Assembly (NCBI RefSeq): GCF_001421165.1
Contig: NZ_LMKB01000004.1
Location: 1-64,000, forward strand
From: Frigoribacterium sp. Leaf8
GTDB lineage: Bacteria > Actinomycetota > Actinomycetes > Actinomycetales > Microbacteriaceae
Reading direction: 5' to 3'
Length of the DNA stretch: 64,000 nt
In this document: in pieces, positions 1,714 to 63,599 of the stretch
How positions within the stretch are numbered: the first letter of the stretch is position 1
Layout of the letters: each line of letters begins with the position of its first letter
Position numbers and translations under genes: made by a program
Notes under the pieces: generated by a model
What the model was told of the DNA's origin: nothing
What the model saw: only the letters and a program-made list of their open reading frames with translations
Database searches by the model: none

Positions 1714-2004
1714 CCTGCGCGGTGAGTCGGTAGACGTCACCGGGGCGAGCACGAACCGCGACCGGCGGTCATCCCGGTCACCCTGCAGGCGCGGAGGGCA
1801 GCGCCACGACTCACGTCGTCACCACTCAGCCCCGCACCGATCACCGGTGACCGCGCACCCTGCATCGTTCACCACCGTGTGCTGACCGGAGACGTCGAGG
1901 GCGGGATCGGGGACCTCACCGCGCCTCCTGGGGCTGCCTCCGTCGGCACACGTCCGCGTCGCGGTCCGTCCCGCGACGGGGGCGACGATCGATAGGCTCG
2001 CCGG
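1714..2004. other. Intergenic, one copy of the repeated 10-mer, small hairpin
   Basis: No convincing gene. It contains one CGCGCCTCCT copy (1920-1929), a 10-bp palindrome TCACCGGTGA near 1846, and an 8-bp perfect hairpin (1957-1964 with 1971-1978) just upstream of the tmk -10 box. Confidence 0.5.
1993..1998 (+). promoter_or_regulatory. -10 box for leaderless tmk
   Basis: TAGGCT followed by six bases and the GTG start. This spacing predicts transcription beginning at the start codon, and it recurs in front of many genes of the window. Confidence 0.6.
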
Positions 2005-2661
2005 GTGACGGATCAGGCAGCCCGTGGGGCGTTCATCGTGTTCGAGGGCATCGACGGGTCGGGCAAGTCGACGCAGGCGCGCCTGCTCGCCGCCCGTCTC
2101 CAGGACGCGGGGGTGCCGGTGCACCAGACGGCCGAGCCGACCACCGGCCCCGTCGGCACGTTGATCCGCAACGGCTTCAACCGCCGGGTCGACCTGGACG
2201 ACCGCGTCATCGCGTCGCTCTTCGTCGCCGACCGCCTCGACCACATCACGAACGCCCACGACGGCATGCTCAGCATCGTCGAGCGGGGCACGACCGTCCT
2301 CTGCGACCGGTACCACCTGTCGTCACAGGCCTACCAGGCGTCCGACGTGGGCAGCGACTGGATCGCCTCGTCGAACTCCATCAGCACCGACCTGATGCTG
2401 CCCGACCTGACGATCTACCTCGACGTCTCGCCCGAGGTCGCCCTCGAGCGCCTCGCCAGCGGACGCACGACCACCGACCGGTTCGAGGTCGACGAGCGAC
2501 TCCGGGCAGCCCGCGAACGCTACGCCGAGGCCATCGAGCAGGCCGACGAGGTCGTCGTCACGGTCGACGCCGACCGCTCGACCGACGAACTCGCCGACGC
2601 CGTCTGGCACGAGGTCTCGACCCGGCTCGACCTCGGGTCGCTGGCGCGCCCGCAGGGCTGA
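2005..2661 (+). CDS. tmk: dTMP kinase (thymidylate kinase)
   Basis: Phosphorylates dTMP to dTDP with ATP in dTTP synthesis, in the cytoplasm. The 218-aa protein has the P-loop GIDGSGKST at residues 15-23, the DRY(H)LSS motif for nucleotide binding around residue 101, and an Arg-rich lid near residues 150-160. Length is typical. The GTG start is chosen because a -10 box lies exactly six bases upstream. In most bacteria tmk is next to holB or topA; here it is flanked by unrelated genes, so a second copy elsewhere in the genome is possible. Confidence 0.92.
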   Translation: MTDQAARGAFIVFEGIDGSGKSTQARLLAARLQDAGVPVHQTAEPTTGPVGTLIRNGFNRRVDLDDRVIASLFVADRLDHITNAHDGMLSIVERGTTVLCDRYHLSSQAYQASDVGSDWIASSNSISTDLMLPDLTIYLDVSPEVALERLASGRTTTDRFEVDERLRAARERYAEAIEQADEVVVTVDADRSTDELADAVWHEVSTRLDLGSLARPQG

Positions 2662-2663
2662 CA

Positions 2664-2749
2664 CCGCGCCTCCTCGGGTGACCGAGCCGTCACGACGGGA
2701 CGCTCGCCCCGGCACGTGAGCGACACCCCGACGGGGTCAGGAGGCGCGG
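2664..2749. terminator. Inverted pair of the repeated motif between convergent genes
   Basis: CCGCGCCTCCT at 2664-2674 and its reverse complement at 2739-2749 form an 11-bp inverted repeat across the tmk/XRE convergent junction; the right half lies within the last codons of the XRE gene. The 64-nt loop is long, so termination is uncertain, but the arrangement matches the two clear motif-based hairpins at 38.0 and 49.0 kb. Confidence 0.35.
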
Positions 2750-3924: not shown

Positions 3925-6900
3925 TCAACCCTCGACGGCCGGCTGGCCCTGCCCGGTCAGGCGCAGGAACCCGCTCAGCAGCCCGAGCCCCGCGATCGAG
4001 GTGGGCAGGCCCGTCGCGAGCAGCGGGGAGTGCACCAGGAACGCCGCCCACTTCGCCCGCGACAAGGCCACGTTCAACCGGTTCGGCATCAGCAGGAAGT
4101 CCAGCCCGCGCGGGATGTCGGCGGCACTCGACGCCGCCAGCGAGACGACGGCCACGACGGCCTCCTGCCCCTGGAACAGGTCGACCGTGCCGACGGGCGT
4201 CTCGTCGAAGCCGGCCGCGTCGAGGTGTTCGCGCAGCACGGCGCCGTGGGCGTTGTACGGCGCGACGACGATGACGTCGGCCGCGGTCAGGGGCCGGGTG
4301 CCGTCGGCGTCCGACCAGTCGAGCCCGACGACCGACCGCACGATCTCGACGACCGCCCGGGCCTCCTCGACCGACGAGGTCGTGTTGCCGACGTGCGTCA
4401 CCGGTTCGACGTGCAGGCCGGGTGCGACGCCCTCGAGCCGGCGGTCGGAGGCATGGGCGGTCAGTGCCCCGCCGTAGGACAGCTCGCTGACCGGGGCGCA
4501 CAGCGCCGGATGCATGCGCCAGGTGGTGGCGAGGAAGTAGCCGTACTCGGCCGGAAGCACGTCGTGGCCGTCGGCCAACCAGCCGAGGGCCGACTCGTCG
4601 ACCGGCTCGGGGTGGCTGCCCTGGCTGACCTGCGGCAGCTGCTGCGGGTCGCCGAGCAGCAGCAACCGCGTCGCGGCGACCGAGGCCGCCACGGTCGAGG
4701 CGAGGGAGAACTGCCCGGCCTCGTCGACGACCAGCAGGTCGAGGGAGGCGCGGGCCACCTTGTCGGCGTTGGCGAACCCCCAGGCCGTCGCCCCGAACAC
4801 GGCCCCCACGGCCTGCCCGCCGCCGTCGACCCCGGCACCGCCCGCGCCACCGTCGGCCTCGGCGAGGAACGCGGCCTCACCGCCGGACTTCAGGGCACGC
4901 CAGGGCTGCTCGTCGGCCTGCTCGGCGGTCGTGCCCGACTTCGGCACCTTGCCCACGCGCTCGGGATCGACGCCGGCCGTGATGGCCGCCCGCAGGACGT
5001 TCTCGACCACGGCGTGCGACTGCCCGACGACCCCCACGCGCCAACCGTGCTCACGAACGAGCCGGGCGACGACCCGCGAACCGACGTAGGTCTTGCCCGT
5101 GCCGGGAGGGCCCTGGACGGCGAGGTACGAGCGGTCGAGGTCGAGCAGGGTCTCGACGACGGCCGAGACGGTGTCGTTCCCGACCACGGGTGCGGGCCCG
5201 CCACCCGACCGCCGACGCGGCGGCTGCCGCCGCAGCAGGTCGAACGCCGGGTCGGGCAGCATCTCGGGCAGGGCGTCGAGCACGTGCCCACCCCATTCGG
5301 CGATCGCCTCGGGCTGCGGAGTGGCCCGGGGAGGCGCGGCGGGCGTCAGCGCGACCGGGAACGCGTCGTGCCGGTCGTCGTCGCCGGTGACGCGCTCGAG
5401 CAGCACGACCTCGTGCCGGTCGCCGTTCGGGCCGGCCTCGACCACCGTCGACCCGACGGCACCCCGCAGCCCGGGGCCGAGCGAGGCGACCCCGGGCGGG
5501 ACGGGGGCGTCGTAGACGGCGTAGGGCGCGCCTCCTTCGCCCAGGCGACTGCCGGGCGCGAGGCGGCCGCGCAGCCGCACCTCGCGGCTGAGCTTGCGGG
5601 CCCGGGGCAGCTTCTGCCACTCGCGCTCGACCGACGCCGTCTCGACCACGAACACGTCGCGGGTGTCGGCCCAGTCGTCGACCGGGTTGCGGAGGCGGTC
5701 GAAGTGCTCTTGCCAGAACGTCTTGGCCTCGCGGCGGTGGTAGTCGATGGCCGACGCCGCGAGGGCGATGGCCGTCTGGTCGGGGGTGCGGTCGAGCGGG
5801 TCGACGTCGGCCACGTGCGCCGCGAGGCCCACGGCGACCGGGTTCGGCTCGCGGGGCACGCGGGCGAGCTCGAGCGGGTCGGGCGCGGTCGGGCCGTCGG
5901 GGTCGTCGCCCCGGGTGCCGTGCCGGTCGGCCAGCTCGAGCAACCAGTCGCGCAGCCGCAGGGTCGACCGGCAGTCGTACTCGTTGTAGTCGCGGACCTC
6001 GTCGAGCATCTGGTCACCCCGCGCCGCGTCGCCCGTGGTGCGTTCGGCGATGGCGTCGACGTACATCGTGATGCTGGCGGTGGCCGTCTTGACGTCGCTC
6101 TGCCGGAGGTCGTCACCCATGTAGAGCGGCTCGAGCTTCTTGAGCGAGTAGCTGTGCGACCCGACGAGCAACGCCTGCCGCACGACCGGGTAGAGGTCGA
6201 CGAGCACGCCGTCGCGGAGCAGGTCGTCGACCGCGTCCTCGCCGACGCCGTGGCGGGCCGCCAGCGAGAGCAGGTGGCTGCGCTCGTACGAGGCGTAGTG
6301 GTACACGTGCAGGTCGGGGAATCGCCGGCGGCGCTCGGAGAGGTAGTCGAGGAAGTCGATCAGCGCCTGCCGCTCGCCCGCGAAGTCATGAGCCCAGAAG
6401 GCCCGGAAGGTGCCGTCGGCCTCGACCAGCCCGAAGAGGTAGTCGAGGCCCCAGGCCCGCCCGTCGCCCTCGGTGTAGAGCGGGTCGCCCTCGAAGTCGA
6501 AGAAGACGTCGCCGGCGTCGGGCCGCGGGATCGTCCGCAGGGCGTCGGCGTCGACGACCTCGACCGCGGGCGCGCCGGTGTGGTCGCGCTCGGTGGCGAG
6601 CTGCACCCGGGCCTGCCCCCGCAGCCGGGCGAGGGCCGTCGCCCCGATGCCGGCGACGGGCCCGTCCGACCCGGCGAGCTCGTCGATCGTGGCGACGCCG
6701 GCCAGGTGCAGCCGCTGACGTTGCTCGCCGCGCAGGCCGGCGACGAGCACGAGGTCGCGGTGCTCGTCGACCTGGGCCTGGCAGGCCGTGCAGCGCCCGC
6801 AGGCGGTGACGCCCGGGTCGCCCCAGGTGAGCGGACCCTCGGCGGCGAGCCGCTCGGCCAGGGCGGCCCGCAGCCGGTCACGCTGGACCCGGTAGACCGG

Positions 6901-7440
6901 CAGCACGTCGGCGACGTCGTGCACGCTCTCGCTGCCGTCGCCGAGCACGAGGCGCACGGTGTCGGCCGACGGCAGTCCGAGCGCGCGGATCTGGTCGGTG
7001 TAGGCCGCGACCTGCAGCAGCGCGGGGATCTTCGCGTGGCGGGCGAGCTTGGTGTCGTAGACCTCGTAGGTGCCGTCGTCGGTGCGCACCACGAAGTCGC
7101 TGAAGCCGATGAACGATCCGTCGAAGAACGTCGCCTGGAAGAGCACGTCGGCCCCGGAGGCCATGGCGACCCGCGCCTCCTCGGCGGCCGCCGCGTAGCC
7201 CGACGGGGCCGGACGGTCGAACTCGACGACGTCACGGGTCGCCCGCAGCGCCTCGAGGTACCGCAGTTCGTGGGCGTCGCCGAGCCGGGCCGTGCGGTCG
7301 AGCATGTCGTCGGACGCGTCGGCAACGGCGTCGACCCGGCCGAGCTTCGCGTCGAGCCGTCGGAGGAACGACCACTCGCACGCGGCCCAGGTCGTCAGGT
7401 CGGACGGGCTGGTGACCACCCGGTCGTCGTCGAGGTACAC
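3925..7440 (-). CDS. TM0106-family RecB-like nuclease fused to SF1 helicase
   Basis: An 1171-aa DNA-processing enzyme. Residues 1-230 form a RecB/Cas4-like PD-(D/E)XK nuclease (EVYDTKLA core) with one Cys near residue 21 and CGRCTAC near 213-220, the spacing expected of a Cas4/AddB-type iron-sulfur cluster. Residues about 310-500 hold an RNase H-like exonuclease domain (FFDFEGDP ... YNEYDCRST). The C-terminal half is a Dna2/Upf1-like SF1 helicase with GPPGTGKT, VVDEAGQFS, LLGDPQQLPQ and the late motif VALSRAKWA. A GTG start with AGGAGT upstream is used. It probably resects or unwinds damaged DNA; the role of this family is inferred, not established. Confidence 0.9.
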   Translation of the reverse strand: MYLDDDRVVTSPSDLTTWAACEWSFLRRLDAKLGRVDAVADASDDMLDRTARLGDAHELRYLEALRATRDVVEFDRPAPSGYAAAAEEARVAMASGADVLFQATFFDGSFIGFSDFVVRTDDGTYEVYDTKLARHAKIPALLQVAAYTDQIRALGLPSADTVRLVLGDGSESVHDVADVLPVYRVQRDRLRAALAERLAAEGPLTWGDPGVTACGRCTACQAQVDEHRDLVLVAGLRGEQRQRLHLAGVATIDELAGSDGPVAGIGATALARLRGQARVQLATERDHTGAPAVEVVDADALRTIPRPDAGDVFFDFEGDPLYTEGDGRAWGLDYLFGLVEADGTFRAFWAHDFAGERQALIDFLDYLSERRRRFPDLHVYHYASYERSHLLSLAARHGVGEDAVDDLLRDGVLVDLYPVVRQALLVGSHSYSLKKLEPLYMGDDLRQSDVKTATASITMYVDAIAERTTGDAARGDQMLDEVRDYNEYDCRSTLRLRDWLLELADRHGTRGDDPDGPTAPDPLELARVPREPNPVAVGLAAHVADVDPLDRTPDQTAIALAASAIDYHRREAKTFWQEHFDRLRNPVDDWADTRDVFVVETASVEREWQKLPRARKLSREVRLRGRLAPGSRLGEGGAPYAVYDAPVPPGVASLGPGLRGAVGSTVVEAGPNGDRHEVVLLERVTGDDDRHDAFPVALTPAAPPRATPQPEAIAEWGGHVLDALPEMLPDPAFDLLRRQPPRRRSGGGPAPVVGNDTVSAVVETLLDLDRSYLAVQGPPGTGKTYVGSRVVARLVREHGWRVGVVGQSHAVVENVLRAAITAGVDPERVGKVPKSGTTAEQADEQPWRALKSGGEAAFLAEADGGAGGAGVDGGGQAVGAVFGATAWGFANADKVARASLDLLVVDEAGQFSLASTVAASVAATRLLLLGDPQQLPQVSQGSHPEPVDESALGWLADGHDVLPAEYGYFLATTWRMHPALCAPVSELSYGGALTAHASDRRLEGVAPGLHVEPVTHVGNTTSSVEEARAVVEIVRSVVGLDWSDADGTRPLTAADVIVVAPYNAHGAVLREHLDAAGFDETPVGTVDLFQGQEAVVAVVSLAASSAADIPRGLDFLLMPNRLNVALSRAKWAAFLVHSPLLATGLPTSIAGLGLLSGFLRLTGQGQPAVEG

Positions 7441-9234: not shown

Positions 9235-9944
9235 GCGAGGCGGAGCGAGGGCAGAAGCAGCACCACCACGAGCACGAGCAGGAGCAGGAGCGACACGGGA
9301 ACGGGCACGCCCACCCCGTCTTCGACCGCGACTACTGGGAGGACCGCTACGGGCAGCCAGGCCGCGCCTGGAGCGGACGCCCCAACGCCGCCCTCGTCGC
9401 CGAGGTCGCCCAGCTGGCCCCCGGGCGCGCACTCGACGTCGGCAGTGGCGAGGGCGGCGACGCCCTCTGGCTCGCCTCGCGGGGCTGGCGGGTGACGGGC
9501 GTCGACATCTCGCAGAACGCCCTCGACAAGGCGGCCGCGCTGGCCCGCGAGCAGGAGGACGTCGACCCGGCCCACCTCACCTGGCAGCAGGCGGACCTGA
9601 CGGAGTGGAGCCCGACCCGCGCCTCCTTCGACCTCGTCACGGCGCACTTCATGCACCTGCCGCCCACCGACCGCGAGCGGCTGTTCCCGGCACTGGCCGA
9701 CGGCGTGGCACCGGGCGGCACCCTGCTGATCGTCGGCCACGACGTCGACGCCCTGCCGGGCGGCGCCGGGAAGCACGGCGACCCGGGCATGCTCTTCACC
9801 GTCGGCGAGGTGGTCGGCAGGCTCTCCCCCGACTCGTGGCGGGTCGACGTCGCCGAGGTGCGCCCGCGTGACATGACGGGCCCCGACGGGGAGGTCTGGC
9901 ACGTGGCCGACGTGGTCGTCCGCGCCACGCGCCGGGAGGGCTGA
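9231..9944 (+). CDS. Class I SAM-dependent methyltransferase with His-rich N-terminus
   Basis: A 237-aa methyltransferase. SAM motif I, DVGSGEGGDALWLA, begins near residue 69, followed by GVDIS. The N-terminal 25 residues are rich in His and Glu (HHHEHEQEQERHGNGHAH), an unusual extension that could bind metal. The body resembles TehB/thiopurine-methyltransferase-like detoxification enzymes. Translationally coupled (ATGA) to the CPYC flavoprotein, which suggests methylation and oxidation of the same thiol or metalloid compound. It ends at a long hairpin shared with the convergent lacZ. Confidence 0.85.
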   Translation: MSEAERGQKQHHHEHEQEQERHGNGHAHPVFDRDYWEDRYGQPGRAWSGRPNAALVAEVAQLAPGRALDVGSGEGGDALWLASRGWRVTGVDISQNALDKAAALAREQEDVDPAHLTWQQADLTEWSPTRASFDLVTAHFMHLPPTDRERLFPALADGVAPGGTLLIVGHDVDALPGGAGKHGDPGMLFTVGEVVGRLSPDSWRVDVAEVRPRDMTGPDGEVWHVADVVVRATRREG

Positions 9945-10073: not shown

Positions 10074-15140
<5,067 letters not shown>

Positions 15141-16588: not shown

Positions 16589-17260
16589 ATGACGACGACC
16601 GGCTCGACGACGAGCGACCCAGGAGGCGCGCCCACGGGTGGCGCCGACGGTTCTCGTCCCACGCGTCGCGGCCCGTACGCGAAGTCGGCCGAACGCCGGC
16701 TCGCGATCGTCGAGGCGGCCTTCGAGGTGTTCTCGACCAAGGGCTACGTCGGCGGGTCGCTCCGTGACGTGGCGGACGTCGTCGGCATGAGCCAGACGAG
16801 CCTGCTGCACTACTTCCCGTCGAAGAGCGCGCTGCTGCTCGCGGTGCTCGAACGTCGCGACACGGTCTCGGACCGTTCCGCCGAGCCTCCCGACCGAGGT
16901 GACCTGATCGGGACCGTCCTCGGGCAGGCGCGACACAACGAGACGGTGCCCGGACTCATCGCGCTCTACGCGGTGCTGGCAGGCGAGGCGGTCACGACCG
17001 GCAACCCCGGCAGCGACTACGTGCGTGAGCGCTTCGAGCGTCTGCGTGCCGAGTACGGCGACGCCCTGCGAGCGCTGGAGGCGCGGGGTCGGTTGCGCCC
17101 CGGGGTCGACCCCGACCGGGCGGCGTCCGGGCTCGTGGCCCTGTGGGACGGCATCCAGCTGCAGTGGCTGCTCGACCCGGACCGCATCGACGTGGTGCAG
17201 CAGTTGCGGGACCACCTCGACCTGGTGGTCCTGCCCGACGACGCGGTCGACGGGGCATGA
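16589..17260 (+). CDS. TetR-family regulator of the galactoside operon
   Basis: A 223-aa TetR protein. The helix-turn-helix spans about residues 35-85, with SLRDVADVVGMSQTSLLHYF as recognition helix region; the C-terminal ligand domain is TetR_C_6-like. A TAGAGT box lies eight bases before the ATG. It is divergent from the ABC/lacZ operon across the 24-bp palindrome and should repress that operon until a sugar or glycoside is bound. TetR proteins as sugar regulators are less usual than LacI or ROK proteins but occur in Microbacteriaceae. The alpha/beta hydrolase downstream overlaps by ATGA. Confidence 0.9.
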   Translation: MTTTGSTTSDPGGAPTGGADGSRPTRRGPYAKSAERRLAIVEAAFEVFSTKGYVGGSLRDVADVVGMSQTSLLHYFPSKSALLLAVLERRDTVSDRSAEPPDRGDLIGTVLGQARHNETVPGLIALYAVLAGEAVTTGNPGSDYVRERFERLRAEYGDALRALEARGRLRPGVDPDRAASGLVALWDGIQLQWLLDPDRIDVVQQLRDHLDLVVLPDDAVDGA

Positions 17261-18084
17261 GCCGACTACTCGCCGCCCCGGGTGGCGGGACCGTCCGGGT
17301 CCCCGTGCCCGTCCGCTGGTACGAGCCGTGGCCGGTGTCGACGGGTTCGCCCGGGCCGACGCTGCTCTGGCTGCACGGCGGTGGGTTCTTCCGTGGGGGG
17401 CTCGACCAGCCGGAGGCGCACGACGTGGCGCGGTCGCTCGCCGCACGCGGGGTGAGGGTCGCCACGGTGGACTACCGCCTCGCGCCTCCTCCGGGTCGCG
17501 GTCTCGTGGCCGGGCGGCTGATGCCGTCGCGCAGCCGGTACCCGGGGGCACTCGACGACGTGGTGACGGCCTACGGCGAGGTGGCCGACCGGTCGCCCGA
17601 GGGCGTCATCGTCGGAGGCGCGAGCGCGGGGGCGTGCCTCGCCGCGGCGGCCACCCTCCGCACGATCGACGAGGGTCGCCCTCCGGTCGGCGCCGTCTTC
17701 GCCTACGGCTTCTTCCACCCCGCGCACCCCCGGATGGCGGAGGCACGCCACCGGTCGGGCGGCCACCGGGGACTCAGCCACGCGAGGTGGGCGCTCGACG
17801 TGATGAACCGCAACTACGCCGGCTCGCGGACCGCGCTGGCCGACCGGCTCGCCTTCCCCGGAGGTCACGACCTCACGGGGTTCCCCCGGACGCTCGTGGT
17901 GAATGCCGAGCGCGACAACATGCGCGCCTCGGGCGACGTGTTCGCCGGGGAGCTCGCCGACGCGGGGGTCGACGTGCGGCACCACGTCCTGCCGGGCACC
18001 CGCCATGCCTTCCTGAACCGGCCCCGGCTGGCCGAGTACGCCCACACCGTCTCGCTCGTCGCGGAGTGGACCCGCGGCGGCTGA
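17257..18084 (+). CDS. Alpha/beta hydrolase, hormone-sensitive-lipase family
   Basis: A 275-aa esterase-like hydrolase. It has the oxyanion motif HGGGF near residue 44, the nucleophile elbow GASAGACL around residue 120, the acid in NAERDNMR and the catalytic His in GTRHAFLN. No signal peptide. It is translationally coupled to tetR (ATGA), so it may act on the same glycoside ligand, for example by removing acyl groups; that is inference. A (CCTGY)15 repeat starts immediately after its stop codon. Confidence 0.88.
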   Translation: MSRLLAAPGGGTVRVPVPVRWYEPWPVSTGSPGPTLLWLHGGGFFRGGLDQPEAHDVARSLAARGVRVATVDYRLAPPPGRGLVAGRLMPSRSRYPGALDDVVTAYGEVADRSPEGVIVGGASAGACLAAAATLRTIDEGRPPVGAVFAYGFFHPAHPRMAEARHRSGGHRGLSHARWALDVMNRNYAGSRTALADRLAFPGGHDLTGFPRTLVVNAERDNMRASGDVFAGELADAGVDVRHHVLPGTRHAFLNRPRLAEYAHTVSLVAEWTRGG

Positions 18085-45570: not shown

Positions 45571-45668
45571 GGTGGTCCCTTCGATCGGGCGGCGGCCCCG
45601 GGAGCGGGCCGCGCGGCGGACGGGCCGCGACCTCCCACCCTGGCACCCGCGCCTCCTCGTCCGCCGGA

Positions 45669-47516: not shown

Positions 47517-48989
47517 ATGTCGACGACGAACCAGCAGCCCCCGAACCCCCGGTCCGCGAACCAGGCGCAGCCGCCCACGACCGACACGGGCGAGAGCCCC
47601 ACCGAGCTGAAGCGGGCGATCGGTCCGAAGCTGCTGCTGCTGTTCATCGTCGGCGACATCCTCGGCACGGGCGTCTACGCCCTGACCGGGCAGGTGGCGG
47701 CCGAGGTCGGCGGTGCGGCGTGGTTGCCGTTCCTGATCGCCTTCGCCGTGGCCCTCGTGACGGCGTTCTCGTACCTCGAGCTCGTGACGAAGTACCCGCA
47801 GACCGCCGGCGCGGCCCTCTACGTGCACAAGGCGTTCGGCATCCACTTCGTGACGTTCATCGTGTGCTTCGTGGTGATGTGTTCGGGCATCACGAGCGCG
47901 TCGACGGCCTCACGGGCGTTCGCGGCCAACCTGGCGGCGGGCATCGGCGTCGAGCTGTCGAACTCGGCGGTGATGCTGATCGCGATGGCCTTCATGCTGC
48001 TCGTGATGGCCGTGAACTTCCGCGGGGTCAGCGAGAGCGTCAAGGCGAACGTCGTCCTCACCCTGATCGAGCTGTCGGGCCTCGTCATGGTGATCCTGAT
48101 CGGGTTCTGGTTCATCGCCGGCGGCAACGCGGACTGGGGCCAGGTGGTGCTCTTCGAGACGCCGGGCGACAAGTCGCTGCTGCTGAGCGTCAGCACCGCG
48201 ACGTCGCTCGCCTTCTTCGCCATGGTCGGCTTCGAGGACTCGGTCAACATGGCGGAGGAGACCAAGGACCCGAGCCGCATCTTCCCCAAGGTCATGCTGA
48301 CCGGCCTCGGCATCACCGCCGTGATCTACGTGCTCGTCTCGATCTGCGCCGTGGCGATCGTGCCGATCGGCGACCTGGCCGACAACGAGACCCCCCTGGT
48401 CACCGTGGTGAACACCGCCGCCCCGGACTTCCCGATCGGCGGGCTGCTGCCGTACATCTCGATGTTCGCCGTCGCCAACAGCGCCCTGATCAACATGATG
48501 ATGGCGAGCCGGTTGCTCTACGGCATGAGCAAGCAGGGCGTGCTGCCCGGCTTCCTCGGCAGGGTGCACCGGAAGCGGCAGACCCCCTGGGCGTCGATCG
48601 TCTTCACGACGGCGCTCAGCCTGGTGCTGATCGGCTACGTCTCGCTCTCGCCCGAGTCCCCGATCGTGGCCGTGCTCGGAGGCACGACGTCCCTGCTGCT
48701 GCTGACGGTGTTCGCCCTGGTCAACGTCGTCGTCCTCGTGTTGCGTCGCGACACCGTGTCGCACGGGCACTTCCGCGCGGGGACGGTCCTGCCGATCGTC
48801 GGCGTCGTGGCCTGCCTCTGGCTGGTGCTGCCGGTGTCCTCCGGTCGCGGCGCCGAGCAGTACACGATCGCCGGCGGCCTGCTCGCGATCGGCGTCGTCC
48901 TCTGGCTCGCGACCTTCGTGTCGCGGCGGGGGAAGCCCGTGCCGAGCGACGCGATCGCCGACGCCGAGCGCGCCGACCCCCGGGCATAG
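47517..48989 (+). CDS. APC-family amino acid permease
   Basis: A 490-aa permease with about 12 membrane helices. The GDILGTGVYALTG segment in helix 1 and FEDSVNMAEETKDPSRIFPK after helix 6 are APC-superfamily marks. Substrate is likely an amino acid or amine. ATG at 47517 is chosen over 47472 because GGAGG lies five bases upstream. Divergent from the molybdoenzyme gene; ends at a motif-based terminator. Confidence 0.92.
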   Translation: MSTTNQQPPNPRSANQAQPPTTDTGESPTELKRAIGPKLLLLFIVGDILGTGVYALTGQVAAEVGGAAWLPFLIAFAVALVTAFSYLELVTKYPQTAGAALYVHKAFGIHFVTFIVCFVVMCSGITSASTASRAFAANLAAGIGVELSNSAVMLIAMAFMLLVMAVNFRGVSESVKANVVLTLIELSGLVMVILIGFWFIAGGNADWGQVVLFETPGDKSLLLSVSTATSLAFFAMVGFEDSVNMAEETKDPSRIFPKVMLTGLGITAVIYVLVSICAVAIVPIGDLADNETPLVTVVNTAAPDFPIGGLLPYISMFAVANSALINMMMASRLLYGMSKQGVLPGFLGRVHRKRQTPWASIVFTTALSLVLIGYVSLSPESPIVAVLGGTTSLLLLTVFALVNVVVLVLRRDTVSHGHFRAGTVLPIVGVVACLWLVLPVSSGRGAEQYTIAGGLLAIGVVLWLATFVSRRGKPVPSDAIADAERADPRA

Positions 48990-48994
48990 ACGGC

Positions 48995-49036
48995 AGGAGG
49001 CGCGGCGCCGGTCTCGCCACCGGCACCGCGCCTCCT
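48995..49036. terminator. Bidirectional hairpin built from the repeated motif
   Basis: Arms 48995-49012 and 49019-49036 (18 nt, one G-T-compatible mismatch) with a 6-nt loop, between convergent APC permease and PRISE reductase genes. Each arm begins or ends with the complete 11-mer AGGAGGCGCGG. Confidence 0.9.
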
Positions 49037-49050
49037 CGGCGGATCGGGGC

Positions 49051-50172
49051 CTACGGGATCAGGCGGGCGGCGCGATAGCGCTCGAACAGGTCGACGAACG
49101 CCTGCTCGGTGCGGCGGTACCGGGTGAACCCGGCGTCGCGGGCCTTGCCCATGTCGGTGACGACCTCGATGTCGCGACCGAGGTCGCCGTCGGTGTGCCA
49201 CCACGAGGCGACGCGCGACAGGTCGGGCTCGGCGAGGTCGTGCTCGGCGACGAGGTCGCGCCACTCCTGCTCGAGGCCGACCATCTGCTGCTCGAGCGGA
49301 CGCGGCTCGCCCTCGAAGCCCTCGACGAGCGCGGGGTCGATGCCGAGGTGGCCGGCCAGGCGGGGCCACAGCCAGCGCCAGCGGAACACGTCGCCGTTGA
49401 CGATGTTGAACGGCTCGTCGGCACCGGCGGGGTCGGTCGCGGCCCAGATCATCTGCTCGGCGAGGACGCCCGCGTCGGTGACGTCGACGAGCGAGTTCCA
49501 CTGCGTCTCGCTGCCCGGGAACGTGAACGGGCGGCCGAGGCGCTTGCTCAGCGCGGCCTGCACGGCGATGGTCAGCCCCATGTTCATGGCGTTGCCGACG
49601 GCGAACCCGATGACGGTGTGCGAGCGGTGCACCGACCAGGTGAACCCCTGGCGCTCGGCGGCGGCGAAGAGCTCGTCCTCCTGCGCGTAGTAGAAGTTCG
49701 GGTAGGGCAGGCGCTCCTCGTCCTCGTGGAAGGGCGTGTCGGGCATGTCGCCCGTGCCGTAGGCCTCGAACGGGCCGAGGTAGTGCTTCAGCCCGGTGAC
49801 GAGCGACACGTGTCGCACGGGGGCGTGGTCGAGGGCGGCCAGCAGGTCGCGGACCATGGCGCCGTTCACCGCGATGTTCTCCGCCTCGGTGTCGCGCTTC
49901 TGCCAGGCGGCGAAGAACACGTGGGTCGGCTTCGCGTCCGCCAGCGCCGTGCGCAGGCTCTCGGCACTCGTCAGGTCGGCGGCGATGCCCGTCACCCCGT
50001 CGGACGAGGAGGCGCGGCGCGAGAGGGCAAGGACGTCCCACCCCTCGCGCGTCAACTGCTCGACGAGGGCGGTGCCGGTGATGCCGCTGGCGCCCACCAC
50101 GAGGGCGGTGCCCGGAACTGTCGGGGCGGCGGGCCGGGTGCTGTCGGTCTGGGGGGTCTCGGTGGTGCTCAT
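49051..50172 (-). CDS. PRISE-type short-chain reductase
   Basis: A 373-aa SDR of the progesterone 5-beta-reductase/iridoid synthase (PRISE) group, which reduces enones with NADPH. NADPH-binding GASGITGTALVEQL near residue 26; LKHYLGPFEAYG and NFYYAQED replace the usual SDR YxxxK, as in PRISE enzymes; SVHRSHTVIGFAVGNAMNMG is also family-typical. A copy of the repeated 10-mer encodes RASSSD near residue 54. Start at 50172; no clear ribosome site. Physiological substrate unknown. Confidence 0.9.
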   Translation of the reverse strand: MSTTETPQTDSTRPAAPTVPGTALVVGASGITGTALVEQLTREGWDVLALSRRASSSDGVTGIAADLTSAESLRTALADAKPTHVFFAAWQKRDTEAENIAVNGAMVRDLLAALDHAPVRHVSLVTGLKHYLGPFEAYGTGDMPDTPFHEDEERLPYPNFYYAQEDELFAAAERQGFTWSVHRSHTVIGFAVGNAMNMGLTIAVQAALSKRLGRPFTFPGSETQWNSLVDVTDAGVLAEQMIWAATDPAGADEPFNIVNGDVFRWRWLWPRLAGHLGIDPALVEGFEGEPRPLEQQMVGLEQEWRDLVAEHDLAEPDLSRVASWWHTDGDLGRDIEVVTDMGKARDAGFTRYRRTEQAFVDLFERYRAARLIP

Positions 50173-50834: not shown

Positions 50835-50943
50835 GGCCGACGACCTGCTCGACGCGACGGGATCGGACGTCCGGCACCGCGCCTCCTAGACTCGACGGAC
50901 GGGTCCGCGGGGACCGCCTCGGCGGTGCTCCGGCCCGCCGGTC

Positions 50944-54223: not shown

Positions 54224-56017
54224 ATGAGTGACACCACCGAGCAAGCCCCGAGCGACGCCACAGAGCAAGCCGACACGACGCCGACGTTCGCCGATCTGGG
54301 CTTGAGCGACCAGGTCCTGAAGGCCATCCGCGAGATCGGCTACGAGACCCCTTCGGCCATCCAGGCCGCCACGATCCCCACCCTGCTCGACGGCCGCGAC
54401 GTCGTCGGGCTCGCGCAGACCGGCACCGGCAAGACCGCGGCCTTCGCCCTGCCCATCCTCTCGCGCCTCGACGTGTCGGCCAAGAAGCCGCAGGCCCTCG
54501 TCCTGTCGCCGACGCGCGAACTCGCGTTGCAGGTCTGCGAGGCGTTCGAGCAGTTCGCCTCCGGCATGCGCGGGGTCCACGTCCTGCCCGTCTACGGCGG
54601 CCAGGCGTACGGCGTCCAGCTGAGCGCGCTCCGCCGCGGCGTCCACGTCGTCGTCGGCACGCCCGGCCGCATCATGGACCACCTCGCCAAGGGCACCCTC
54701 GACCTCAGCGAACTCAAGTACCTGGTGCTCGACGAGGCCGACGAGATGCTGAAGATGGGCTTCGCGGAGGACGTCGAGACGATCCTCGCCGACACCCCCG
54801 ACGACAAGCAGGTGGCCCTGTTCTCGGCCACCATGCCGCCGCAGATCCGTCGCATCTCGAAGCAGTACCTGAACGACGCCGAAGAGATCACGGTCAAGGC
54901 CAAGACCACGACCTCGGTCAACACGACCCAGCGCTACCTGATGGTGTCGTACCCGCAGAAGGTCGACGCCCTGACGCGCATCCTCGAGGTCGAGAACTTC
55001 GAGGGCATGATCATCTTCGTCCGCACGAAGAGCGAGACCGAGACCCTCGCCGAGAAGCTGCGCGCCCGCGGCTACTCGGCCGCGGCGATCAGCGGTGACG
55101 TCGCCCAGGCCCAGCGCGAGCGCACGGTCAACCAGCTGAAGAGCGGCAAGCTCGACATCCTCGTGGCGACCGACGTCGCGGCCCGCGGTCTCGACGTCGA
55201 CCGCATCAGCCACGTCGTCAACTACGACATCCCGATCGACACCGAGTCGTACGTGCACCGCATCGGCCGCACCGGGCGTGCCGGCCGGAGCGGTGCCGCG
55301 ATCAGCTTCGTCACGCCGCGCGAGCGTCGTCTGCTGGGTGCGATCGAGAAGGCCACCCGCCAGCCGCTCACGCAGATGCAGCTGCCGACCGTCGAGGACG
55401 TCAACAGCACGCGCCTCACCCGCTTCGACGACGCGATCACCGAGGCCCTGTCGCAGGACAGCCGCATCTCGGCGTTCCGCGACATCATCAGCCACTACGT
55501 CGAGCACCACGACGTGCCCGAGGCCGACGTCGCCGCCGCACTCGCCGTGGTCGCCCAGGGCGAGACGCCCCTGCTGCTCGACCCGAAGGACGAGCGCCCG
55601 CAGCGCGACGAGCGGCCGCTGCGCGAGCGCGACGACCGTGCCCCGCGCGCTGGTCGCGACGACGACCGGGGCGAGCGCCGTGAGCGTGGCCCGCGGACGT
55701 CGAAGCCGATGACCGCCTACCGCATCGAGGTCGGTCGCCGTCACCGTGTCGAGCCGCGTCAGATCGTGGGTGCCCTGGCGAACGAGGGCGGTCTGAGCCG
55801 CGACGACTTCGGGGCGATCCAGATCCGCCCCGACTTCTCGGTCGTCGAGCTCGCCTCGGACGTCTCGAGCGACATGCTCGACCGTCTGAGCGACACCCGC
55901 ATCAGCGGCAAGCTCATCGAGATCAAGCCCGACCGCCGAGGAGGCGCGCCCCGCCGCGACGACCGCCCCGACCGGTCGCAGGGTGGCGAGCGGCCCGCCC
56001 GCAAGCCCCGCTACTAG
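54224..56017 (+). CDS. deaD: DEAD-box RNA helicase, DeaD/CsdA type
   Basis: A 597-aa RNA helicase for ribosome assembly and mRNA unwinding, often cold-linked. The order is Q motif, Walker A AQTGTGKT, PTRELA, GTPGR, DEAD box (VLDEADEM), SAT, and HRIGRTGRAG; a Arg/Asp-rich linker (about 450-490) leads to a DbpA-type RNA-binding domain (about 492-565, YRIEVGRRHRVEPRQIVGAL) and a Arg/Gly tail with one repeated 10-mer. Leaderless start. A hairpin follows the stop. Confidence 0.95.
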   Translation: MSDTTEQAPSDATEQADTTPTFADLGLSDQVLKAIREIGYETPSAIQAATIPTLLDGRDVVGLAQTGTGKTAAFALPILSRLDVSAKKPQALVLSPTRELALQVCEAFEQFASGMRGVHVLPVYGGQAYGVQLSALRRGVHVVVGTPGRIMDHLAKGTLDLSELKYLVLDEADEMLKMGFAEDVETILADTPDDKQVALFSATMPPQIRRISKQYLNDAEEITVKAKTTTSVNTTQRYLMVSYPQKVDALTRILEVENFEGMIIFVRTKSETETLAEKLRARGYSAAAISGDVAQAQRERTVNQLKSGKLDILVATDVAARGLDVDRISHVVNYDIPIDTESYVHRIGRTGRAGRSGAAISFVTPRERRLLGAIEKATRQPLTQMQLPTVEDVNSTRLTRFDDAITEALSQDSRISAFRDIISHYVEHHDVPEADVAAALAVVAQGETPLLLDPKDERPQRDERPLRERDDRAPRAGRDDDRGERRERGPRTSKPMTAYRIEVGRRHRVEPRQIVGALANEGGLSRDDFGAIQIRPDFSVVELASDVSSDMLDRLSDTRISGKLIEIKPDRRGGAPRRDDRPDRSQGGERPARKPRY

Positions 56018-56206: not shown

Positions 56207-56623
56207 ATGAGCACCCCGCCCTCCCCCGGTGGCACCGACGCGCTGTTCGGCGTCGTGCAGACCGCCCTCACGATCGGCAGTGCCATCCCGTTGGTGCTGT
56301 CGGTCGTCGCGCTCGTGCTCTTCGTCCGGATGAGACGTCGGCTCTCGGCCGGCCTGCCGGGAACGCCGGGCACGCGCCGCCTCGCCGACGACTCCCGCCG
56401 ACTGCACGACCTGGCCCGGGTGAGCCTGCTGGGTGCCGCGTTCGGCCTCGTGCTGCTGGTGATCGGCCAGCTCGTCGTCGGCCTCGGCACGACGCAGGGC
56501 CTCGCGGCGGCGTTCGCCGGGCCGCTCGCACCCGTGACGATCGGTGCGATCGTGCTGACCGGCCTCGCGGCCGTCGCGTTCGCGACGTCGCCGGCGCCGC
56601 CCGCGCCTCCTGAACGCCGCTGA
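56207..56623 (+). CDS. Hypothetical membrane protein, 138 aa
   Basis: Three membrane helices (about 22-44, 73-95, 103-125) with a basic loop in between; no family recognised. ATG at 56207 chosen because ACGGAG lies just upstream; the longer frame upstream lacks support. Its last codons contain a repeated 10-mer (56602). Confidence 0.7.
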   Translation: MSTPPSPGGTDALFGVVQTALTIGSAIPLVLSVVALVLFVRMRRRLSAGLPGTPGTRRLADDSRRLHDLARVSLLGAAFGLVLLVIGQLVVGLGTTQGLAAAFAGPLAPVTIGAIVLTGLAAVAFATSPAPPAPPERR

Positions 56624-58224: not shown

Positions 58225-59199
58225 CTAGGCCGGGGTCGCGGCGTACTCCGCCGCCAACACCTCGCCCAGCCACGCGGCGAGCGTCGCGGCGGCCGACACC
58301 GACGACGACCGCTCGACGTCCGGGTTGTAGTTGGTGTTCGTGTTGACGTCGTAGGGCACGGAGCGGCCGTCGACGGTCTCGATGAACTCGATGCCGGCGA
58401 CCTCGATGCCGTGCTCGGCGACGAAAGCCTCGAGACGCCGTACGAGCGGGTGCTCCGCGGTGACCGACGGGCGCACCGCGAACGGCGCGAACGTGGCCGG
58501 GTCGGCGCCGTCGGGCAGGACGCACGCGTCGGCGGGGCACAACTCGAAGCTGCCGGCCGAGGTGTCGACGCGCACCGCGTAGACGAAGCGCCCGCCGACG
58601 ACCTCGACGCGTGTGTTGAAGGGCTCCTCGGCCTGCAGGAACTCCTGCAGCAGGGTGATCCCGTCGACCGGCACCTCGAAGTCGGGCCCGTCGACGTACG
58701 CGTCGAACGAGTCGAGGTCGTCGAAGCGCCGCACACCGAGGCCCTTGCCGCCCTGGTTGTGCTTCGTGATGAACGGCAGCGTCTGCTCGCGTGCCCGGGC
58801 CTTGAGGTCGGCGGTGCCGAACACGGCAGTCGTCGCGGGGACGTTGAACCCGGCGGACGCCAGCGCCAGGTACTGCGCCACCTTGCTCACCTCGAGTTCG
58901 ACGACACCGCTGCCGTTGATGGTCCGGCGCCCGTGCCGTTCGGCCCAGCGCAGGGTCGCTCGCGCGACCTCCTTGGCCGTCCCCCGGCCGCGCGTGTGGG
59001 CCGAGCCGCTCAGCCGCGACCAGAACACCCCTTCAGGAGGCGCGGCCGCGAGGTCGAAGGACGTCCCGTCGAGCAGGTGCTCGCGGTGGGGCACCCCCGC
59101 GGCGTCGAGCGCGGCGACGAGCGGCGGCAGCCACTCGGCGTTGTCGTGCAGCACGTGCACGACGGGTGACGGGTCGGCGTGGTCGATCGGCGAGGTCAT
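58225..59199 (-). CDS. RimK-like ATP-grasp ligase
   Basis: A 324-aa ATP-grasp protein. The nucleotide-binding lysine and glycine loop are in FITKHNQGGKGLGVRRF; metal-binding residues are in GIEFIETVDGRSVPYDVNTNTNYN. It should join a carboxylate to an amine using ATP; relatives modify peptides or make amino-acid ligations. The N-terminal 100 residues form the pre-ATP-grasp domain, with one repeated 10-mer near 59035. ATG at 59199. Substrate unknown. Confidence 0.88.
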   Translation of the reverse strand: MTSPIDHADPSPVVHVLHDNAEWLPPLVAALDAAGVPHREHLLDGTSFDLAAAPPEGVFWSRLSGSAHTRGRGTAKEVARATLRWAERHGRRTINGSGVVELEVSKVAQYLALASAGFNVPATTAVFGTADLKARAREQTLPFITKHNQGGKGLGVRRFDDLDSFDAYVDGPDFEVPVDGITLLQEFLQAEEPFNTRVEVVGGRFVYAVRVDTSAGSFELCPADACVLPDGADPATFAPFAVRPSVTAEHPLVRRLEAFVAEHGIEVAGIEFIETVDGRSVPYDVNTNTNYNPDVERSSSVSAAATLAAWLGEVLAAEYAATPA

Positions 59200-60835: not shown

Positions 60836-60864
60836 CGTCCGACGATTGCCGGAGGTCTTGCTTG

Positions 60865-62598
60865 GTGAACCACCCGTCGGGGCACGACGACGCCCTGAGC
60901 CGCGACGACGTGCGCGCGGCGTACGAAGACGACCCCACCTGGGCCCTGCTCCGCGGCTACAACGCCCGCTGGATGCTGCCGCTCTTCTCCCGCCACCTCG
61001 AGCACGCCGAGGGTCCGGTGTCGGCCGACTGGTTCCACCGGCAGGTCGCCGACGCCCTCGAGCAGAACACGGCCGAGCAGGCGGCGTCCGAGCAGGCCGC
61101 ACTCGAGCAGGCGGCGTCCGAGCAGGCCGCCCCCGAGCACCCGACGTCCGAGCGGGCGACGACCGAGCGGGACCCCGAGGAGGCGCGGCCCGCGTCCCCG
61201 ACGCCCGTCGCCACGCCGGCCCCCGCCGAGCAGAAGACCACCCCGGCCGAGTACTGCCGCAGCTGGGTCGAGAGCCGCTGGCTCGTCCGCACCCGCGCCT
61301 CCGGACCGGACGCCCGCGCCGAGTACCGCCTGTCGCCGCACGCGCTCAAGGCGCTGCGCCTCGTGCGCGACCTCGTCGAGCGTGACAACGCCGTCAGCGA
61401 GGCCCGCCTCGGCAGCATCGCCCACGCCGTCGGGCAGCTCGCGGGCCTCGCCGACCCCAGCCGCGGGTCGCAGCTCACCCGGCTCGACGAGCAGATCGCC
61501 GAGCTCGAGCGCCGCAAGGCCGAGATCGAGCGGCACGGCACCGAGCCCACCGCTCCCGACGTGCTGCGCCGTCAGGTCCGCGAGGTGGTGCGTCTGACCG
61601 CGTCGCTGCCCGAGGACTTCCGCCAGCTCGGCGCCATGGTCGAGCAGCGGCACCGCGAGGTCGCGCGCCGGGCCTCGTCCGAACACGTCGGCAAGGGCGC
61701 GCTCGTCGACCAGTACCTGCGCGACAACGACCTGCTCGAGCAGACCCCCGAGGGACGCGCGTACCGCGGCTTCGCCCAGATGCTGTCGTCGCGCGGGATC
61801 GACGTCATGCGCGCCGACATCGAGAAGGTCCTCGCCCAGCCCGACGCGGCCGCGCAGCTCACCGAGCGGCAGCGCACGCAGCTCGAGTCGCTCATCTCGT
61901 CGCTGCTCGCCGAAGAGCAGAGCGTGCAAGAGACGTACGGCCGGTGGACGTCCTCGCTGCGGCGCTTCCTCAGCCGGTCGGGCTCCGACCAGCAGCAGCG
62001 CCTGCTCACCCTCGCCGACCGGGCGCTGCACGCGGGCGGCGTCTGGGCCGAGCGCCGGCCGGGCCACGCCATGCTGCCCGTCGAGCACGGCGACGGGCTC
62101 GGCCTCGGGGCGCTCGACGTCCGTGACGTCAGCCAGGTGCAGCTGCACACCGATCGCGCGCGGCCGACGGTCGACGTGCAGGTGACCATCGGCGACGCGA
62201 CCCTGCCGGAGGCCGACCGGGCCGCCCTCCGCCTCACCTCGGGCACGAGCACGGCGGCCGTGTCGGCGACGATCGACCGGCTGCTCGTCGACCGCGACGA
62301 GGTCACGAGCGGCGACGTCTACCAGGCGACCGAGCCCGGGTTCCGCCGCCTCGCGCTCGTCCTCAGCATGCTCGACCTGGCGCTCGAGCGCGGCGTCGTC
62401 GGCGACGACACCGAGACCGTCGAGCTCGTCGGCGATCCCGCCGACCCCACGACGTCAGGAGGCGCGGGTCGGCAGGTCACGCTGCCCCGCCTCGTCTTCC
62501 GACGCGGTCCCGCGGGTCCGCCCGGGGCCGAGCCGGGCGTCGAGCCCGACGCCCCCGACCCCACGACCGGCACGACCAGCACGAAGGACCTCGCATGA
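60865..62598 (+). CDS. jetA: Wadjet protein JetA (DUF3375)
   Basis: A 577-aa kleisin-like subunit of the Wadjet complex, which recognises and cuts small circular plasmids. DUF3375 marks are WALLRGYNARWMLPLFSRHL at the N-terminus, YCRSWVESRWLVRT, FRQLGAMVEQRHREVA and GFAQMLSSRGIDVM. Residues about 66-125 are an Ala/Glu/Gln/Pro-rich insertion (repeated AASEQ units and one repeated 10-mer) splitting the N-terminal domain from the winged-helix part; usual JetA lacks it. GTG start with GGAGG nine bases upstream. Coupled to jetB by ATGA. Confidence 0.93.
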   Translation: MNHPSGHDDALSRDDVRAAYEDDPTWALLRGYNARWMLPLFSRHLEHAEGPVSADWFHRQVADALEQNTAEQAASEQAALEQAASEQAAPEHPTSERATTERDPEEARPASPTPVATPAPAEQKTTPAEYCRSWVESRWLVRTRASGPDARAEYRLSPHALKALRLVRDLVERDNAVSEARLGSIAHAVGQLAGLADPSRGSQLTRLDEQIAELERRKAEIERHGTEPTAPDVLRRQVREVVRLTASLPEDFRQLGAMVEQRHREVARRASSEHVGKGALVDQYLRDNDLLEQTPEGRAYRGFAQMLSSRGIDVMRADIEKVLAQPDAAAQLTERQRTQLESLISSLLAEEQSVQETYGRWTSSLRRFLSRSGSDQQQRLLTLADRALHAGGVWAERRPGHAMLPVEHGDGLGLGALDVRDVSQVQLHTDRARPTVDVQVTIGDATLPEADRAALRLTSGTSTAAVSATIDRLLVDRDEVTSGDVYQATEPGFRRLALVLSMLDLALERGVVGDDTETVELVGDPADPTTSGGAGRQVTLPRLVFRRGPAGPPGAEPGVEPDAPDPTTGTTSTKDLA

Positions 62599-63599
62599 GC
62601 CCCGCAGCCCCCTGGGACGAGACCGGCGTCGACGAGGCGACCCGCGCCTCCTCGGCCGAGGCGACCGCCACCTCCCCCGACGAGTCGGCGCGCGCCTCCC
62701 GCGATGCCTTCGACGACGGCGACGCCGACGACGCGGCGGCCGGTGGCGTCCCGGACGCGCTACCGCTGGCCGGACGCAAGGCGCTCGTCACGCTGCTGAC
62801 CCACCGGTTCGTGTCCCGCGCGCGGCAGCAGGAGGCCTGGGCGGGCCTACTCGCGCACGAACCCGAGATCCGGGCGCGGCTCGAGGAGCTGTTCCTGGTG
62901 CTGGTCGTCGACCACGACCACGAGGTCGCCTTCAAGCGACAGGGCGGCGAGGACGACGTGCCCGTGCTGCTGCGCCGCGAGAAGCCGCTGTCGCGCGACG
63001 CCTCGCTGCTGATGGTCTTCGCCCGCCGGGAGCACGCCTTCACGGACGGGCAAGACGAGGCGGTCGTGATCTCGAAGGACGCCGTGGCCGAGTTCCTCGG
63101 TCGGTACCACGACGACTCGGGCTCCGACGAGGTGCGCGCCCGCCGCCGGGTCGACGCCGCGATCGCCGCGCTCGTCGCCCGCGACCTGCTGACGGCCGAG
63201 CCCGACGACCCCGAACTGTTCGTGGTCTCGCCCGCGATCGTGCCGCTGATGACCGCCGACCGACTCGCGCACCTCGAGCGGGTGTACCTCGAGGCGGCAG
63301 GCGTCGAGGGCGACCCGACCGATGGGGACGAGGTCGGCATCCCCGTCGATGCGGACGCGGCCGAAGCGGAGGTCGACGCCGACATCGATGCCGACGCCGA
63401 CGCCGACGCTGACGAGCCCGAGGTCGAGGTCGAACCCGATCCCGCCGACGACGACCCCGCGGACACGGTGGAGGACACCCCCGACGCCGAACCCGACCCG
63501 ACCGCCGTCCCGCTCGACCTCGACCTCGACCTCGAGCCCGCGCCCGCGCACGACGCCGGCACCGGCACCGACACCGACACGGAAGCACCCCAGGCATGA
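62595..63599 (+). CDS. jetB: Wadjet protein JetB (DUF4194)
   Basis: A 334-aa KITE-like subunit of Wadjet. The core (about residues 55-235, ALVTLLTHRFVSRARQQEAW, LFLVLVVDHDHEVAFKRQG) matches DUF4194. Unusually, an Asp/Ala/Ser-rich N-terminal 50 residues (two copies or near-copies of the repeated 10-mer) and a C-terminal 90-residue acidic tail of Asp/Glu/Pro repeats flank it; ordinary JetB is about 200 aa. The stop overlaps the jetC ATG. Confidence 0.92.
   Translation: MSPAAPWDETGVDEATRASSAEATATSPDESARASRDAFDDGDADDAAAGGVPDALPLAGRKALVTLLTHRFVSRARQQEAWAGLLAHEPEIRARLEELFLVLVVDHDHEVAFKRQGGEDDVPVLLRREKPLSRDASLLMVFARREHAFTDGQDEAVVISKDAVAEFLGRYHDDSGSDEVRARRRVDAAIAALVARDLLTAEPDDPELFVVSPAIVPLMTADRLAHLERVYLEAAGVEGDPTDGDEVGIPVDADAAEAEVDADIDADADADADEPEVEVEPDPADDDPADTVEDTPDAEPDPTAVPLDLDLDLEPAPAHDAGTGTDTDTEAPQA

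Follow-up and report, generated by a model that had tools for sequence, protein, structure and literature searches.

A ten-letter word repeated throughout an actinobacterial genus: could it be a DNA uptake sequence?

Why would a bacterial genome write the same ten letters again and again, on one strand as readily as on the other? The question is raised by a stretch of 64,000 nucleotides from Frigoribacterium sp. Leaf8 (family Microbacteriaceae; contig NZ_LMKB01000004.1, positions 1 to 64,000; hereafter, the window), in which the ten-letter word AGGAGGCGCG occurs in 37 exact copies, 18 on the plus strand and 19 on the minus, that span positions 1920 to 62652. We have tried to ask what such a word could be for. 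The answer toward which we lean, with somewhat more belief than doubt, is that AGGAGGCGCG is one dialect, peculiar to its genus, of a self tag working in the manner of a DNA uptake sequence (DUS).

How surprising is the word? A first-pass annotation of the window had counted 36 copies (17 vs. 19 by strand), one short of the exact number, and had supposed that chance would supply about one, which is just what it supplies: in 100 dinucleotide shuffles of the window, the mean was 0.95 copies and the largest number was 5. The same annotation had proposed a count over the whole genome (3.33 Mb in 12 contigs), where a number near expectation would have told against its reading, and there, the count is far above expectation: 722 copies on the plus strand and 700 on the minus, or 1,422, vs. 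13 (9 and 4) for a control with the pattern reversed. That is one copy per 2.3 kb and about 110 times the control. Might the proteins encoded, rather than the DNA itself, have demanded these letters? For this and for all statistics of position and polarity, we used 464 kb of the 3.33-Mb genome (the window and two 200-kb pieces), which hold 221 sites, 105 on the plus strand and 116 on the minus. Genes were called by our own simple codon-model caller, with which the split between coding and intergenic sites is approximate (the latter come to 95 or 94). Coding sites number 126, whereas 60 synonymous shuffles average 15.8 and never exceed 24, which rules out an artefact of codons or dipeptides; both strands and five of the six phases are represented among them, and the intergenic DNA holds 94 where 0.43 would be expected. 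Thus, like a DUS, the word is present in hundreds to thousands of copies, far above what composition and codon use would give.

The copies are also placed in a telling way. Only 57% of the 221 sites are coding, where 88.9% of positions are, an intergenic excess of 4-fold. Between convergent genes, the excess is about 9-fold (40 sites or 18% vs. 2.1% of positions), and between tandem genes, the figures are 22% and 6.1%; between divergent genes, they are 3% and 2.6%. Of the 95 intergenic sites, 36 have an inverted partner, GGAGGCGC, within 80 bp, as do 11 of the 126 coding ones. The window holds two such pairs between convergent called genes. One, at 38018-38083, joins an exact copy (38030-38039, minus strand) to one whose first base is G (core at 38056, plus strand); the other, at 48984-49052, consists of two exact copies (48995-49004, plus; 49027-49036, minus). 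As RNA, they are predicted to fold into terminator-like hairpins of −66.0 and −44.1 kcal/mol, respectively. In placement and in predicted hairpins, these inverted pairs at gene ends match the arrangement known for DUS and for the uptake signal sequences (USS) of other bacteria, and the paired subset of sites may well take part in transcription termination. Is the word then simply the conserved stem arm of an intrinsic terminator? The paired intergenic sites and the two strong hairpins speak for it, but 126 of the 221 sites are in called genes, 115 of those are unpaired, and 59 intergenic sites are unpaired as well. As a full explanation, the terminator is contradicted by this majority of coding or unpaired sites, and we give it very little chance.

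A word that directs traffic along the chromosome should point in one direction, and AGGAGGCGCG does not. We divided the sample into 23 bins of 20 kb, which take in 218 of the 221 sites, and deduced the direction of replication from the gene strand and from GC skew. The word occurs 69 times on the plus strand and 77 times on the minus where most coding is on the minus strand and 34 and 38 times elsewhere; when bins are divided by GC skew, the counts are 52 and 62 in one class and 51 and 53 in the other. Because the strands are balanced in bins of either majority gene direction, the word has no replication polarity. The first-pass annotation had claimed equal use of the strands and had named strong replication-strand polarity as a finding that would refute its reading; the former holds, and the latter is absent. 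Polar segregation signals, such as the FtsK orienting polar sequences (KOPS) or the architecture imparting sequences (AIMS), are ruled out by the same lack of skew across bins. The orientation bias of Chi is likewise missing, and this bears on another rival, a Chi-like recombination hotspot read by an enzyme of the RecBCD, AddAB or AdnAB type. Chi sequences are over-represented and differ among lineages, traits that AGGAGGCGCG shares with them, but they are 5-8 bases long and usually biased toward the leading strand; AGGAGGCGCG is longer, without strand bias and in 4-fold excess between genes. We consider a Chi-like role improbable.

Are the individual copies kept? Here, we compared orthologues in one region, the 20 kb (in one case, 14 kb) around comEA/comEC, in 15 genomes of the genus. 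Five disjoint pairs of congeners give 44 sites: 34 of the 38 that align are intact, the other 4 carry substitutions and no indels, and 6 are unaligned; control 10-mers in the same pairs are intact in 4,182 of 8,972 aligned cases (47%), with 940 unaligned. The 30-bp flanks on each side are 85.5% identical, whereas the region as a whole is 90.6% identical. The larger set of all 42 ordered pairs with at least 86% identity, which (like the coding/intergenic split and the comparisons between clades below) reuses the same sites across genome pairs, gives 220 of 279 aligned sites intact, 52 with substitutions and 7 with indels, with 40 unaligned (controls, 530 of 1,409 intact and 166 unaligned); the indels listed among those 7 differing sites fall at a short tandem repeat. 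Among close relatives, coding sites are intact in 174 of 212 cases vs. 1,032 of 2,685 for controls, and intergenic sites are intact in 56 of 77 vs. 67 of 159. The intergenic profile of identity runs at 0.86-0.97 inside the word and at 0.45-0.85 over the preceding 30 bases, with the exception of the base directly 5′ of the word (0.91); the 3′ side is higher (0.68-0.99). Near relatives, then, keep the word, even though the sequence around it changes faster than the region at large.

The same comparisons dispose of a mobile short repeat, whether a repetitive extragenic palindrome (REP) or a miniature inverted-repeat transposable element (MITE). Dispersed copies are what such a repeat would leave, but orthologous sites differ mainly by substitution (52 vs. 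7 indels; in the disjoint pairs, 4 vs. 0), and we rule it out; nor do we find the confinement to one family of mobile elements that, by the terms of the first-pass annotation, would have refuted its reading. A translation signal fares no better. The AGGAGG of the word resembles a ribosome site, but only 7 of the 221 sites are placed as one before a called start, and the strands are balanced, which eliminates the Shine-Dalgarno reading. Between them, the mobile repeat and the translation signal retain almost none of our belief.

What exactly is being kept? When the single-base variants in the 464-kb sample are compared with an order-3 Markov expectation, positions 2-9 of AGGAGGCGCG are nearly strict: most variants are near or below expectation, and the largest excesses are 9 vs. 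3.3 (T at position 7) and 4 vs. 1.4 (A at position 5). The two ends are looser. Position 1 tolerates C (40 vs. 6.4 expected) and G (44 vs. 3.9), and position 10 tolerates T (22 vs. 1.5), A (9 vs. 1.4) and C (10 vs. 4.9). Outside the word, 76% of the 221 sites have G at base 11 and 64% have C at base 14, and on the 5′ side, C stands second and third from the word in 56-57%, with other columns weaker; the longer conserved flank once proposed, CCGAGGAGGCGCGGG, is thus real as a set of base preferences and as nothing stricter.

A strict core of eight bases with two looser ends also looks like the site of a protein, and this brings us to the strongest rival: that AGGAGGCGCG is recognised across the genome by a cytoplasmic protein with no part in uptake (a nucleoid organiser, a factor in repair or defence or a self mark based on DNA modification), the specificity of which drifts between lineages. 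This rival, too, is compatible with the balance of the strands and with the way in which near relatives keep the word. It does not predict the roughly 9-fold excess between convergent genes, the frequent inverted pairs or the manner in which positions turn over between clades (only 7 intact from clade A to clade B, as described below) while each clade keeps hundreds. We think it unlikely, although it is the rival that we would least like to dismiss.

How far does the word reach? All 14 sampled congeners hold it in 513-1,570 copies (controls, 10-51), and the 45 other genomes of the same count hold 0-61. A wider draw took in 199 genomes from 85 genera of the family, 4 of them from the genus itself (our own genome included). 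In the 195 genomes of the 84 other genera, the largest count is 216 (G107, control 75), followed by 124 (G167, control 127); two further genomes from the genus of G107 (g76) are near control, and low counts that exceed control by about 3-fold occur in G022 (52 vs. 14) and G170 (41 vs. 13). Among the family genomes sampled, high abundance of AGGAGGCGCG is limited to one genus. Even there, its form shifts: in G007, GGGAGGCGCGG is preferred and GGAGTCGCGG occurs too, and G008 and G012 carry GGAGGCGGTGG as well. Among the matches listed from a LepA scan of named genomes, no evident congener appeared; a metagenome-assembled genome labelled Frigoribacterium (L117) has a LepA only 84% identical and fell outside the loci kept by a filter of 3 or more copies of three words combined.

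Other genera have other words. Enriched words were sought in 78 loci and 18 genome samples, at significance uncorrected for multiple tests, and are relied on here only if they were counted genome-wide or passed through the codon-aware test. GGATGCCGCG, which is at background in the home genus (23-42 copies across 15 genomes), reaches 613, 514, 496, 366, 340 and 312 copies in six other genera of the Microbacteriaceae; because the reversed form of this word contains TAG, the reversed control is unfair to it, and we therefore rely on the codon-aware test, in which its excess is weaker. Farther away, GGTATGCCG occurs 1,049 times in G053, a member of a different family (control, 4), and 0-49 times in the other 59 genomes, our own included. 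It is also high in 3 of 15 genomes that lie behind named loci, Tetrasphaera australiensis (1,431; control, 67), Terrabacter aerolatus (489; control, 3) and Terrabacter sp. Root85 (529; control, 4), with 5-48 in the remaining 12. Against the codon-aware null, GGTATGCCG in G053 is found 23 times in coding DNA (1.3 expected) and 10 times between genes (0.15), AGGATCCG in G018 28 (3.3) and 10 (0.5) times, and GGATGCCCG in G021 32 (5.8) and 4 (0.3) times. GGATGCCG, which is mostly coding and is the weakest case among the family words, gives 54 (14.4) and 5 (1.3) in G015, 66 (16.5) and 6 (1.4) in G020 and 35 (10.7) and 5 (0.6) in G022; in G021, the same test finds no enrichment (17 vs. 13.7 and 2 vs. 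1.1). Relatives thus abound in other words, as is true of the lineage dialects of DUS and USS. Two further oddities came up. G022 (loci L057 and L064) has another strongly enriched dispersed repeat, made of GGTTTCGAGACG and GGTTGAGGAG, and words with GCGTAC look enriched in Nocardioides (L179, where CGGCGTAC occurs 13 times in 20 kb vs. 1.3 expected) and in Micromonospora (L180), which could reflect codon use or another dialect.

If the word marks self, then foreign DNA should lack it, and to some extent, it does. Among 2-kb bins of the sampled genome DNA (bins with more than 50 N dropped), the 26 with GC below 0.66 hold 1 copy, and the 136 with GC of 0.71-0.75 hold 147. Four small contigs (39 kb, GC 0.55-0.65; contig L218, which is only N, was set aside) hold none. 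Contig C3 has none in its first 13.6 kb (bins of GC 0.62-0.67) and seven in the next 6.4 kb (GC about 0.73), and a 50-kb stretch of a Curtobacterium plasmid has none. No prophage was found for this comparison: TerL_nuclease had no match in 16 genomes of the genus, our own included. We regard the scarcity in foreign-looking DNA as suggestive. In Neisseriaceae, atypical distributions of uptake sequences have served to find mobile elements (PMC7371117). Two places deserve a remark of their own. The GC-poor, 13-kb contig C10 (L217), which holds no copy of the word, has plasmid matches on a CrcB family gene, an enolase and a TDT transporter and is possibly an acquired fluoride-resistance island. 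The start of the window (6-62 and 497-1192), which is also the start of its contig, matches IS30 transposase features of Curtobacterium plasmids, followed by a recombinase gene with 89.8% identity to a Frigoribacterium sp. NBH87 plasmid, and is likely a mobile remnant.

Is there a machine that could read the word? The first-pass annotation had suggested a search for comEA/comEC and for type IV pilus genes, and the genome encodes them all. A ComEA (SLBB plus helix-hairpin-helix) adjoins ComEC; a T2SSE/T2SSF pair looks Tad-like; and a type IV pilus cluster includes PilT (above cut-off), a PilB-like ATPase, a PilC-type protein (these two names are our reading of Pfam domains), PilM, PilO, a prepilin peptidase and three prepilins. 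That cluster (L236 and L237; G000 C1:312001-342000) lies, by eye, between genes resembling rpsL/rpsG and rpoC/rpoB, and inverted pairs of AGGAGGCGCG stand at its edge and beside the gene for a 164-aa prepilin. ComEC is found in 35 of 36 genomes (our own included) and in all 4 of the carriers of GGTATGCCG tested. The ComEC match of Tetrasphaera australiensis, despite its 1,431 copies of GGTATGCCG, is split between two frames (G070 C1:3438581-3439376), through either a sequencing error or a recent loss. PilT is above cut-off in 30 of 60 genomes (our own included) and in 12 of the 15 of the genus.

Several of our observations weigh against an uptake sequence, and they should be heard together. 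The first is that conservation of position is limited to near relatives, since at about 81% identity, the sites of clade A fall below control in two of three comparisons: 7 of 89 ungapped sites are intact in clade B vs. 64 of 375 controls (in full, 7 intact, 82 substituted, 65 gapped and 70 unaligned), and 1 of 58 is intact in clade D vs. 29 of 246 (31 gapped and 23 unaligned). From clade A to clade C, 48 of 105 are intact vs. 85 of 467 (44 gapped and 19 unaligned). Many counterparts between distant clades differ at 3-5 bases. Positions turn over, sometimes faster than in ordinary DNA, while each clade keeps hundreds. The second is that the scarcity in GC-poor DNA follows in part from composition, AGGAGGCGCG being GC-rich and GC being only a proxy for foreign origin, and the first 50 kb of the plasmid of Frigoribacterium sp. 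NBH87 do hold 4 copies. The third concerns the dialects: we judged their kinship (a GGAT-like core) by eye, and GGATGCCG may be a different thing because its coding excess is only 3-4 fold and absent in G021.

A further point lies in the machinery. ComEC, being near-universal, does not discriminate, and the Neisseriaceae arrangement, in which a type IV pilus carries a word-binding minor pilin, is not what we find. PilT is below cut-off in three congeners full of the word (G002, with 1,249 copies; G003, with 1,492; and G006, with 1,204) and in G053; it is present in ten genomes from other families in which none of AGGAGGCGCG, GGATGCCGCG and GGTATGCCG is abundant. PilT does not track the abundance of AGGAGGCGCG, and the idea that carriers have the type IV pilus in common as their machine is unsupported. 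In the comEC region, the same three congeners are one another's nearest kin, and they give no hits of the PilB/PilT type, which the other 12 genomes have, so that one clade has apparently lost the pilus. Carriers without PilT keep 1,204-1,492 copies, so that, should AGGAGGCGCG serve in uptake, its maintenance is not due to the type IV pilus.

Where does this leave the self tag? Most of the sequence-level properties of a DUS that can be examined are present, including ones that played no part in finding the word, and a machinery of ComEA, ComEC and pilus is encoded, although ComEC is near-universal. What the first-pass annotation read as an uptake tag is partly supported: it has held up in abundance, strand balance, conservation among close relatives, inverted pairs and dialects and has failed in the expected link to the type IV pilus. 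From sequence, we infer both a role in uptake and the kind of protein that would read the word, and we imagine the following. A surface receptor of the competence apparatus would bind AGGAGGCGCG in free DNA. The likeliest such receptor would be a Tad/Flp-type pilin or ComEA, since some carriers lack the type IV pilus. Cells would then preferentially take up, through ComEC, DNA from their own species group and recombine it, and biased uptake with recombination would spread and preserve the word across the genome, leaving foreign islands free of it. Micrococcus luteus belongs to the same order as Frigoribacterium, and Rhodoluna and Aurantimicrobium, both freshwater actinobacteria, belong to the same family. 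Transformation of M. luteus needs Flp/tad pili, with ComEA/ComEC present (PMC4322843), and Rhodoluna and Aurantimicrobium are described as taking up DNA during dark incubation (PMC11577799).

For the record, the other exact copies of AGGAGGCGCG in the window are, on the plus strand, 2739-2748, 10964-10973, 12064-12073, 15087-15096, 16621-16630, 26309-26318, 30223-30232 and 30241-30250 (a close tandem), 32218-32227, 33895-33904, 35713-35722, 40681-40690, 50007-50016, 55939-55948, 59035-59044, 61178-61187 and 62457-62466 and, on the minus strand, 1920-1929, 2665-2674, 5527-5536, 7172-7181, 9618-9627, 12480-12489, 17481-17490, 18796-18805, 23099-23108, 25758-25767, 36509-36518, 42291-42300, 45648-45657, 47380-47389, 50878-50887, 56602-56611 and 62643-62652.

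We know of no uptake mark in this bacterial group. The open-access papers searched yielded no actinobacterial uptake sequence (preprints and most subscription papers lay outside the search), which does not prove that none has been published, and the open-access papers that contain either of two 10-mers look unrelated, judged from their titles and the beginnings of their abstracts. The families named for sequence-specific uptake in a 2016 review are Pasteurellaceae and Neisseriaceae (PMC5031613). One might entertain a bolder idea, to which we give a little less than an even chance: that Micrococcales evolved uptake sequences of their own, independently of those two Gram-negative families, with dialects that may go back to a single GGAT(G)C-like word and have each spread genome-wide in one genus or family (AGGAGGCGCG here; GGATGCCG, GGATGCCCG and AGGATCCG in other Microbacteriaceae; GGTATGCCG in Terrabacter, Tetrasphaera and G053), read by a receptor of the Tad/Flp-pilus or ComEA type in cells without an outer membrane. 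If this is true, there would be a third and independent origin, and self-tagging would be a general outcome of competence rather than a Gram-negative peculiarity. Such an origin would supply a replicate for the unsettled matter of why these sequences arise and might tie them to Flp/Tad pili; it would also offer a natural handle for the transformation of actinobacteria that are hard to engineer and a convenient means of spotting foreign DNA in those genomes.

How does AGGAGGCGCG compare with what is already known? HIP1 of cyanobacteria (highly iterated palindrome 1) is an extremely frequent genome-wide oligomer that is linked to methylation and has an unsettled role; it is a palindrome, and AGGAGGCGCG is not. 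Actinobacterial hosts, unlike Neisseriaceae, have no Gram-negative outer membrane. The DUS of Neisseriaceae is unrelated in sequence, AGGAGGCGCG persists in genomes without the type IV pilus ATPase, and we have identified no counterpart of ComP. The USS of Pasteurellaceae has a core (5′-AAGTGCGGT) unrelated to AGGAGGCGCG, Gram-negative hosts and a receptor that may be of another class, but it is alike in being short in its core, genome-wide and varied by lineage (PMC5031613). In Neisseria, according to one report, words are conserved in more divergent neighborhoods and are rare in the accessory genome, and many homologues of the words are too different for point mutation, which the authors ascribe to recombination (PMC2397512). 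The DUS of Neisseriaceae is a word of 10-12 bases, in very many copies, with inverted pairs that act as terminators, conserved within permissive flanks, rare in accessory DNA and divided into dialects by lineage (PMC3630211, PMC2397512, PMC7371117), and AGGAGGCGCG resembles it in length, number, paired arrangement, conservation among close relatives and dialects and, suggestively, in its scarcity in foreign-looking DNA.

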